Below, in pieces: positions 12,649-15,036 of a stretch of 64,000 nt of DNA. A model generated the notes under the pieces. It worked only from the letters and a program-made list of their open reading frames with translations, was not told the origin of the DNA and did not search any database. Source of the stretch: an uncultured Alistipes sp. (GTDB taxonomy: Bacteria > Bacteroidota > Bacteroidia > Bacteroidales > Rikenellaceae). The DNA is taken from assembly GCA_944321965.1 (NCBI GenBank), contig CALUNH010000008.1, positions 21,820 through 85,819 of the forward strand. The letters are read 5' to 3'. Made by a program: the position numbers and the translations under genes. Positions within the stretch are counted from its first letter, which is position 1; each line of letters starts with the position of its first letter.

Positions 12649-13713
12649 CTACTTGCCGAGTACCTCCATCTGCTGGCGGACCGACTCTTCGTGGATGGCC
12701 TGCAGCACCGTGCGCATGAACTCGCGGTCCATACCCAGCTCCACGGCCTGGGCTGCCCGGCGTGCCAGCAGCTCCTCGTAACGCTGTGCCTGGAGGATCG
12801 GCATGTCGTGCTCCTTCTTGTACTGCCCGATGTCGCGCGAAACGCGCATCCGGCGGACCAGAATTTCGAGCAGCTGATCGTCGAGTTTGTCGATCTGGGC
12901 GCGCAGTTCGTTGAGGCTTTCGGTGGTGATGGTCTGCTCGCGGATCACCAGATTGCGGAGGATGTAGGCCAGCGCGTCGGGCGTCACCTGCTGGGCCTTG
13001 TCGCTCCAGGCGCAGTCGGGCGAGCAGTGCGCCTCGATGATCAAGCCGTCGAACCCGATGTCCATGGCCTGCTGCGAGAGCGGGGCGATCAGTTCGCGTT
13101 TGCCGCCGATGTGGCTCGGGTCGCAGAAGATCGGCAACGACGGCAGGCGTCGGTGCAGTTCGATGGGAATGGCCCACATGGGGTGGTTGCGGTAGATGCT
13201 CTTGTCGATGGAGGTGAATCCGCGGTGGATGGCTCCCAGACGTCGGATCCCGGCGTTGTGGATGCGCTCGATGGCTCCGATCCAGAGTTCGAGGTCGGGG
13301 CTGACGGGGTTCTTCACCAGCACGGGGACGTCTACCCCGCGCAGCGCATCGGCAATCTCCTGCATGGCGAAGGGGTTGGCGGCCGTGCGGGCTCCGATCC
13401 AGAGCAGGTCGATTCCACCCTTCAGGGCTGCTTCGACGTGTCGGCGGGTGGCGACTTCCGTGGCGGTGTACATGCCGGTTTCGTGCTTCACGCGCTGGAG
13501 CCAGGCGATACCCTGTTCACCGACGCCCTCGAAGCCTCCGGGTTTGGTGCGGGGTTTCCAGAGCCCGGCACGGTAGATCCGGATCCCTTCGGATGCAAGG
13601 GTACGGGCGGTCTGGATGACCTGTTCTTCGGTTTCGGCACTGCACGGGCCGGCAATGACTAACGGACGCCGGGGATCGACCCCGGGAAGTACGATGGGTT
13701 GGAGATCGTTCAT
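12649..13713 (-). CDS. Bifunctional DAHP synthase / chorismate mutase
   Basis: 354 residues. The N-terminal about 260 residues form a KDO8P-synthase-like DAHP synthase: IAGPCSAE, the RAGLWKPRTKPGGFEG segment and the metal-binding region around FCDPSH. It makes DAHP from PEP and erythrose 4-phosphate. The last about 90 residues are an AroQ-type chorismate mutase (LNELRAQIDKLDDQLLEILVRRM, then REVARYK-like spacing and YEELLARR). Such fusions are usual in Bacteroidetes, and the mutase can act as a feedback sensor. The gene lies 60 bp downstream of pheA and shares its attenuator-controlled promoter, which links entry to and exit from the Phe branch. Confidence 0.93.
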   Translation of the reverse strand: MNDLQPIVLPGVDPRRPLVIAGPCSAETEEQVIQTARTLASEGIRIYRAGLWKPRTKPGGFEGVGEQGIAWLQRVKHETGMYTATEVATRRHVEAALKGGIDLLWIGARTAANPFAMQEIADALRGVDVPVLVKNPVSPDLELWIGAIERIHNAGIRRLGAIHRGFTSIDKSIYRNHPMWAIPIELHRRLPSLPIFCDPSHIGGKRELIAPLSQQAMDIGFDGLIIEAHCSPDCAWSDKAQQVTPDALAYILRNLVIREQTITTESLNELRAQIDKLDDQLLEILVRRMRVSRDIGQYKKEHDMPILQAQRYEELLARRAAQAVELGMDREFMRTVLQAIHEESVRQQMEVLGK

Positions 13714-13773: not shown

Positions 13774-14619
13774 TCAGATCTCCGGATTGGGACATTCGGC
13801 ATATTCGCCCAGGACGCGGAAGTCGCTGGTGAGCGGGCGGGCGGCATCGACGGCCTGTCGGTATCGCACGGGGTCGTCGAAGGTGACGTCGACGTAGAAC
13901 TGGTACTCCCATTCGCGTCCGATGATCGGCAGCGACTGGATCTTCGTGAGGTTGATGTCGTAGAACGAGAGTACGGTGAGGACCTTCGAGAGGCTTCCCT
14001 GGGTGTGACGGAGCGTGAAGACGAGCGAGGCTTTGTTGGTTCGTGCGGGATCGTGGAACTCCGCGGCGCGGCTCACGTCGGCGAGGATCAGGAAGCGGGT
14101 AAAGTTGTGTTTGTTGGTTTCGATGCCGCGCTGGAGGATTTCGAGGCCGTATAGTTCCGCGGCGTCGGCTCCGCAGATGGCGGCCGTGGCGGGTAGTTTT
14201 TCTTCGGCGATTTCGCGGGCGCTTCCTGCGGTGTCGTCGCGTTCGACGACCTTCATTCCGGGCAGGCTTTTGAGGAATTCGCCGCACTGCATCAGGGCGA
14301 TGGGATGGGAGTGTACTTCTCGGATTTCGTCGAGGTTTTGTCCGGGGAGTGCGGCGATGACGTGCGAGATGCGGAGTTTCTGTTCGCCGACGATCCGGGC
14401 CCGGCTGCGCTGGAGGAGTTCGTGGTTGGGGAGCAGGCTTCCGGCGATGGTGTTCTCGATGGCGGCGATTCCCAGCAGGGCGGGGTCTGCGGACATGCGG
14501 CTGAAGAGGATGTCGAAACTCGAACAGGGGAGTACGCCGATTTGTCGATCGGAGAAGTAGCGCCGGGCGGCGGTTTCGTGATAGCATCCTGCGATGCCCT
14601 GTATGGCGATTTGCTCCAT
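13774..14619 (-). CDS. pheA: Prephenate dehydratase
   Basis: 281 residues from ATG 14619 (MEQIAIQGIAGCYHE); a reading-frame extension upstream runs through the terminator and is not credible. The catalytic domain shows the TRF motif (NFTRFLIL). It is followed by an ACT domain with the GSLSKVLTVLS helix and IQSLP, the position of the Phe-binding ESRP-like loop. It converts prephenate to phenylpyruvate. In related genomes an aminotransferase often sits between pheA and the DAHP synthase gene; here it is absent. Transcription appears to be controlled by the attenuator at 14649-14794. Confidence 0.92.
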   Translation of the reverse strand: MEQIAIQGIAGCYHETAARRYFSDRQIGVLPCSSFDILFSRMSADPALLGIAAIENTIAGSLLPNHELLQRSRARIVGEQKLRISHVIAALPGQNLDEIREVHSHPIALMQCGEFLKSLPGMKVVERDDTAGSAREIAEEKLPATAAICGADAAELYGLEILQRGIETNKHNFTRFLILADVSRAAEFHDPARTNKASLVFTLRHTQGSLSKVLTVLSFYDINLTKIQSLPIIGREWEYQFYVDVTFDDPVRYRQAVDAARPLTSDFRVLGEYAECPNPEI

Positions 14620-14648
14620 GTTTTTAGATTTGTTTTTTTGTAAGAAAA

Positions 14649-14676
14649 AATCCCGCACGTGGTGTCGTGCGGGATT
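14649..14676 (-). terminator. Attenuator terminator upstream of pheA
   Basis: On the minus strand a perfect 10-bp stem (14667-14676 with 14649-14658, 8-nt loop) runs directly into a T tract. It lies 30 nt before the pheA ATG, not after a gene, so it can only act as an attenuator. Its 5' arm (UCCCGC, bases 14669-14674) can alternatively pair with GCGGGA in the leader ORF (14728-14733). Confidence 0.82.
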
Positions 14677-14701
14677 CTTCGTGAATTTATGGTTGCTTGA
14701 T

Positions 14702-14794
14702 TCAATTCAGGGTATTGATGCATACCGTCCCGCTTCTTCTTCTGGTAAAAAAGAAAAAGTAATAAAAGAAGTATGCAAAACCGTAGAGTCTCAT
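14702..14794 (-). CDS. pheL: Phe/Tyr-rich leader peptide of the pheA-aroFQ attenuator
   Basis: A 30-codon ORF with 7 Phe and 4 Tyr, concentrated in the run FAYFFYYFFFF at residues 6-16, followed by a TRRR stretch. It starts about 18 nt after the predicted transcription start and stops 26 nt before the terminator hairpin. The GCGGGA antiterminator segment lies about 12 nt after the last Phe codon. Its neighbour GUAUGC (14720-14725) can pair with GCAUAC (14771-14776) inside the control-codon region, giving the usual mutually exclusive 1:2 and 2:3 structures. This is the architecture of ribosome-mediated attenuation. The peptide itself probably has no other function. Confidence 0.82.
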   Translation of the reverse strand: MRLYGFAYFFYYFFFFTRRRSGTVCINTLN

Positions 14795-14816
14795 GATTTC
14801 TGACTTTAACTGGTTA

Positions 14817-14847
14817 CAAAAATAGTTAAAAATTTTGAAAAACCAAA
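14817..14847 (-). promoter_or_regulatory. Promoter of the pheL-pheA-aroFQ operon
   Basis: TTTG (14844-14847), 19 nt, then TATTTTTG (14817-14824) on the minus strand: a full match to the Bacteroidetes -33/-7 consensus. Transcription would start near 14812, giving a leader RNA of about 165 nt to the attenuator. Confidence 0.8.
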
Positions 14848-14953: not shown

Positions 14954-14964
14954 CTGATCTTGAG

Positions 14965-15036
<72 letters not shown>

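Follow-up and report, generated by a model that had tools for sequence, protein, structure and literature searches.

The window analysed here, a 64,000-nucleotide stretch of contig CALUNH010000008.1 from an uncultured Alistipes sp., encodes on its minus strand pheA (13774..14619), whose 281-aa product is a prephenate dehydratase, followed in the same direction by aroFQ (12649..13713), a DAHP synthase with a C-terminal chorismate mutase. Both assignments are supported by NCBIfam matches, all of which lie below the curated cut-offs (E = 5e-57 for pheA; E = 4e-55 and weaker for aroFQ). The upstream neighbour of the leader region is a tRNA-Thr gene (14964-15036), 3' of which a scan for terminators gave a terminator-like site (14955-14928). 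Between the tRNA-Thr gene and pheA, reading of the minus strand revealed a complete attenuator layout.

This layout begins with a promoter (14817..14847) composed of TTTG (14847-14844), a 19-nt spacer, and TATTTTTG (14824-14817). A preliminary description of this DNA had listed a consensus promoter; a promoter is indeed present, but it has the TTTG/TAnnTTTG consensus, which we take to be the Bacteroidota type, and is not sigma-70-like, as a sigma-70 scan found no promoter at the leader. The leader peptide ORF, MRLYGFAYFFYYFFFFTRRRSGTVCINTLN (14702..14794), was described correctly, coordinates included: it has 30 codons plus TGA, with 7 Phe and 4 Tyr codons, and its stop lies approximately 82 nt before pheA. 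Codons 8-16 (14747..14773) form an unbroken control-codon run, Y F F Y Y F F F F. Runs of seven F/Y codons occur at only one place in the genome, in three overlapping registers (the reversed-pattern control gave 1; the genome is 85% complete). Segment 1 (GCATAC, 14771..14776) and segment 2b (GTATGC, 14720..14725) would be the 5' and 3' partners of a protector helix. The antiterminator segment, segment 2 (GCGGGA, 14728..14733), lies 13 nt past the last Phe codon of the run. Its partner, segment 3 (TCCCGC, 14669..14674), is located within the 5' arm of the terminator and can pair alternatively with segment 4 (GCGGGA, 14651..14656), within the 3' arm. The intrinsic terminator itself, a hairpin with a T tract (14645..14680), was not listed by a simple terminator scan; folding and a separate scan of our own both detect it, and its helix covaries. 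The terminator lies before pheA as first described, with a gap from the T tract to the pheA ATG (14619) of 25 nt and not of 30 nt. The predicted folding energy of the leader RNA is -47 kcal/mol (z = -5.5), and 0 of 200 shuffled sequences were as stable.

To delimit the range of this leader, relatives of the 281-aa PheA were collected. In the genus, 67 of the 121 genomes searched gave a match; the other 54, many of them incomplete, had none at E ≤ 0.001, and 37 genus genomes encode a distant PheA (34-45% identity). From contigs of named genomes, 80 loci were kept of at least 538 encoding a PheA relative. The phylum search covered 392 genomes, 339 of which had a PheA match; the 129 of these 339 that were examined were drawn from the top of the list of matches, which leaves the divergent PheA types of the class (weakly matching in two families) hardly represented. 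The sequence preceding pheA, up to 700 nt per locus, was read in 219 loci and then in 40 more, and a leader was scored as an ATG-initiated ORF of at most 70 codons with at least six F/Y codons in 10.

All 30 of the 30 genus loci with a closer PheA (53-100% identity, the window's own included) have an F/Y leader, 29 of them with a detected terminator, and leader and terminator occur together in 17 of 20 genus loci with a distant PheA (34-45% identity), the remaining 3 having no leader according to the detector. Among the named loci, which overlap partly in species with L001-L030, 70 of 80 have the leader and 60 also a detected terminator, while 10 have no leader by the detector. Of the phylum-sample loci, 27/29 and 43/60 carry it, 25 and 42 with a terminator as well. 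Sorted by kinship, the phylum sample gave an F/Y leader in 5/5 loci of the same order, 73/78 of the same class, which the named Alistipes relatives indicate to be Bacteroidia, and 6/46 from elsewhere in the phylum. It should be noted that all these counts are uncorrected for misses of the detector, which include L088 (a Phe/Tyr leader by eye), L185 (an F/Y ORF with a GTG start), and some terminators with longer loops. As a control, 1,090,920 strand-bases flanking the same loci contained 12 F/Y ORFs, none with a terminator. Four of the five misses within the class belong to one family. In three of these (L170, L173, and L174), the sequence preceding pheA looks like the 3' part of a different ORF, shared among them, as if pheA were perhaps a downstream member of another operon. 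A Phe/Tyr leader before pheA is common to most sampled members of the class, and the leader ORF, whose conservation among Alistipes had been put forward as a check of the proposed attenuator, is conserved well beyond that genus.

The 179 terminator-bearing units in L001-L219 encode 145 distinct peptides, which were used for the comparisons below. Of these 145 leaders, 113 have a TAnnTT[TC]G box no more than 70 nt 5' of the leader ATG, with 9.35 expected from shuffles.

Covariation was analysed in an alignment of 55 Bacteroidales leaders, drawn from 66 units of L001-L115 after exclusion of near-duplicates (L013, L018, L020, L021, L096, L098, and L107) and divergent units (L030, L084, and both units of L085). 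The terminator helix (3:4) is paired in 97.1% of cells and has 58 double-change cells vs 13.4 in shuffled alignments, exceeding every shuffle on all measures. For the antiterminator (2:3), 87.5% of cells in the 55-leader alignment are paired, compared with 32-46% when the segments are slid, and there are 45 double-change cells vs 15.1 in shuffles, including GC-to-AU changes (13 sequences, two pairs); 78 of 500 shuffles had at least as many pairs changed on both sides, and all 500 had at least as many pair types. The core of 2:3 differs across families while complementarity is kept: GCGGGA/TCCCGC, GCAGGA/TCCTGC, GAGACC/GGTCTC, and GGTCAGGA/TCCTGACC. These core segments were chosen for having the best complementarity, and the shuffle and swap controls take this selection into account. 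The mean energy of the 2:3 duplex is -13.9 kcal/mol in native leaders, -9.0 kcal/mol with segment 3 of other loci, and -6.4 kcal/mol when shuffled; 131/145 leaders beat 95% of shuffles, but only 69/145 beat 95% of segment-3 swaps. In the protector (1:2), 74.2% of cells are paired and there are 20 double-change cells vs 2.7 in shuffles; of 500 shuffles the real value was reached by 9 for the covariation score, 29 for the paired share, and 396 for pair types. Its duplex has an energy of -20.8 kcal/mol vs -13.0 kcal/mol when shuffled, with 107/145 leaders beating 95% of shuffles and 58/145 beating 95% of leader swaps. The idea that the protector is relevant solely where the leader stop lies past segment 2 was not supported, the energies being alike in both classes (-21.1 kcal/mol for 38 leaders vs -20.7 kcal/mol for 87). 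Compensatory changes are thus clear in the antiterminator and terminator helices and weaker in the protector. The pairing of GCGGGA with the terminator 5' arm, proposed earlier from the window's sequence, is borne out at the positions given; the GCAUAC and GUAUGC segments of the proposed protector are likewise in place, with weak covariation between them.

Taken together, the parts of the leader, their conservation and covariation, the spacing, and the fold predictions make it highly probable that the pheA-aroFQ operon is controlled by a ribosome-mediated transcription attenuator with charged tRNA-Phe and tRNA-Tyr as its signals. We infer that the leader is translated, that the hairpin terminates transcription, and that the device responds to Phe and to Tyr. 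RNA polymerase would start just 5' of the leader ORF, with a ribosome behind it. If Phe- or Tyr-tRNA were scarce, the ribosome would stall on the F/Y codons, covering segment 1 and leaving segment 2 free; segment 2 (GCGGGA) could then pair with segment 3 (UCCCGC) while segment 4 has yet to be transcribed, allowing read-through into pheA. If both tRNAs were plentiful, the ribosome would pass the run, its leading edge would cover segment 2, and segments 3 and 4 would form the terminator. The protector would act behind the ribosome, where the codons near segment 1 may hold segment 2.

The spacing of the leaders fits this scheme, as segment 2 starts a median of 11 nt past the last F/Y codon (quartiles 9-12; 145 leaders). 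In our fold model, the leading edge of the ribosome was assumed to lie 13 nt from the A site, and pairing was called when it involved at least half of segment 2. For the window leader, in which codon 16 is the last Phe codon, the model leaves segment 2 free through codon 17 in the A site and covers it from codon 18. Across the 145 leaders, 2:3 is predicted to form in 143 folds when the A site holds the last F/Y codon and in 1 when the ribosome is four codons further on. Any stall before codon 18 of the window leader, or the absence of a ribosome, favours 2:3 before segment 4 exists (0.91-0.97); since stalls before the run and the ribosome-free state do so too, the model sets the downstream limit alone and does not single out the F/Y codons. 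As long as segment 3 has not been transcribed, the leader codons sequester segment 2 in 131/145 folds. Once segment 3 is made, segment 2 at equilibrium without a ribosome pairs with segment 3 in 96/145 leaders and with the leader in 45, so that the modelled equilibrium prefers the antiterminator over the protector and the untranslated state may therefore read through. The ribosome-mediated attenuation proposed in the preliminary description is thus supported by the conservation of the leader, the covariation of the pairings, and a fitting spacing.

What the ribosome would sense can be judged from the control codons. The runs of the 145 distinct leaders comprise 1,594 residues, of which 758 are Phe (47.6%), 532 are Tyr (33.4%), and 3 are Leu, Ile, or Val; the Phe and Tyr percentages are biased upward and partly circular, because the runs were selected for F/Y content, and the make-up of the non-F/Y positions is the informative part. 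None of the 1,594 run codons is one of the U-rich codons TTA, TTG, CTT, ATT, or GTT. The E. coli leader pheL is a Phe-only leader, and Phe outnumbers Tyr in the runs (758 vs 532), so a sensor of Phe alone might be imagined in which Tyr codons are tolerated since UAY preserves the U-rich pairing with segment 2. We consider this unlikely: Tyr makes up 33% of run residues and is absent from just 1 of 145 leaders, other U-rich codons that would pair similarly are nearly absent (in runs selected for F/Y), and aroFQ supplies precursors of both Phe and Tyr. In 30/145 leaders, 27 of them outside the window's genus, a Trp codon lies within the Phe/Tyr run or close to it, and DAHP synthase feeds Trp synthesis too; this number is insufficient to claim a role in Trp sensing. 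A search for trpE in the window's genome gave no match to TIGR00564.

Readings other than attenuation by a Phe/Tyr-sensing ribosome account for less of these data. The F/Y ORF could encode a functional small aromatic peptide, with the hairpin ending an independent small RNA, and the leader peptide peTrpL, reported to act in trans (PMC7298713), provides a precedent for such a role; however, the peptides vary widely in sequence and length outside the run, and neither the 2:3 covariation nor the spacing of segment 2 would be explained, which makes this very improbable. We see equally little chance that control is exerted by translation or reinitiation instead of transcription termination. Leader genes near structural genes may boost initiation through reinitiation (PMC4833913), but here the leader stop is ~82 nt from pheA with a covarying T-tract terminator in between. 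Next to no credence is given to another RNA device, a T-box or riboswitch, controlling the operon beside an incidental F/Y ORF: T-boxes do sense charged tRNA in other bacteria (PMC2494555), but in the window the upstream tRNA is the only Rfam match to reach the cut-off of its family, and the ten Rfam matches with E up to 10 at the leader are all below cut-offs and include no T-box or riboswitch. The T-box covariance model likewise had no match in the window at gathering, nor at the leader with E up to 10. Two matches to the terminator region, Thr_leader (28.5 bits, cut-off 55) and Leu_leader (18.8 bits, cut-off 50), were set aside as lying well below their cut-offs.

Variants of the Phe/Tyr leader were found among the relatives. 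Nine loci have two F/Y leaders in series before pheA: L058 and L059; L085, L086, and L095; L117; and L123, L128, and L162, the last three from one family. A terminator follows both units in L085, L086, L095, L117, and L128 and one unit in L058, L059, L123, and L162; a good 2:3 partner is available for both units in L058, L085, and L117, and one of the two units has a weak partner in L123, L128, and L162. In addition, the leader ATG lies 5 to 11 nt past the promoter box in 23 of the 113 box-bearing leaders (e.g., L016, L017, and L024), and the leader mRNA is therefore predicted, from inferred start sites, to be nearly leaderless. Bacteroidia are said to make little use of Shine-Dalgarno pairing. 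It seems fairly likely that Bacteroidia, and little else in the phylum, share one Phe/Tyr-sensing pheA attenuator, that it exists in tandem in four lineages, and that in some species it is translated almost from the end of the transcript. If this is true, transcription and translation are closely coupled at pheA across Bacteroidia. Transcription that is not coupled to translation has been proposed to be fairly common among bacteria (PMC7858274); attenuation requires a ribosome close behind RNA polymerase, and these leaders therefore make coupling testable in the class. The leader would also be a natural reporter of Phe/Tyr status, and the tandem copies raise the question of what effect two like sensors in series have on the response.

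Leaders of other composition were also seen. In the window's genome, a Val/Leu/Ile-rich leader ORF, MIASNHSNNVVINVLLVVLEKITGER, with a terminator-like hairpin lies upstream of ilvD (L239:1264-1345) and may be a second candidate attenuator; a similar leader and hairpin precede ilvD at L240:1268-1346. Short His-rich leaders (e.g., MNLTIHHHHHNNTCQ) with a terminator occur upstream of hisG in 6 of 19 loci (L223, L224, L232, L233, L235, and L236), and none was seen before hisG of the window's genome (L226, a shortened locus). Excerpts from an article on the his genes of this phylum (PMC8305728) contain nothing on leaders.

Leader-peptide systems had, in 2010 and to the knowledge of the authors of PMC2965389, been shown only in Proteobacteria and Actinobacteria (ermC aside) before their Firmicutes case. 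The conservation described here extends the classic device over most sampled members of Bacteroidia, a class to which common gut bacteria belong. A comparative study published in 2010 by Lopatovskaya and colleagues, cited in PMC4833913, may contain Bacteroidetes cases. For Flavobacterium psychrophilum, a 2021 paper presented strong clues that leader-peptide attenuation operates before operons for amino acids, along with a structured 5' element upstream of pheA that is present in other genera of Flavobacteriaceae (PMC9723704). This kind of device was therefore already known from that report, and the F. psychrophilum element is probably the same device as the window leader; relative to the excerpts of PMC9723704, the Phe/Tyr codons, the covariation, the class range, and the tandem copies are reported here only. 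Among open-licence PMC papers, none was found that combines a leader peptide, attenuation, and Phe/Tyr codons; the matches listed there included no earlier report of dual Phe/Tyr codons, class-wide range, or the tandem form, and nothing closer on Bacteroidetes, Bacteroides, or tandem attenuators. In Bacteroides, mention has been made of short ORFs that resemble leader peptides (PMC7366714). The Bacteroid-trp RNA motif (RF01692; PMC2864571) is similarly a cis-regulatory candidate of Bacteroidetes, for trp genes by its name, and was not detected in the window by the Rfam search. The tandem loci resemble the Salmonella mgtCBR attenuators in having two short ORFs in one leader RNA, but mgtCBR is a Mg2+ transporter operon (PMC3641672), whereas the two ORFs of each tandem pheA leader are both rich in Phe/Tyr.

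Finally, the Rfam family Phe_leader, which represents the enterobacterial pheA attenuator (pheL), did not match the leader at gathering and is not one of the ten families listed there at E up to 10, and there is therefore no sign of shared descent between the two. The enterobacterial attenuator and that of the window have in common an aromatic leader peptide, alternative RNA segments, and a terminator before pheA. They differ in that the leader described here carries Phe and Tyr codons together and precedes an operon with aroFQ.
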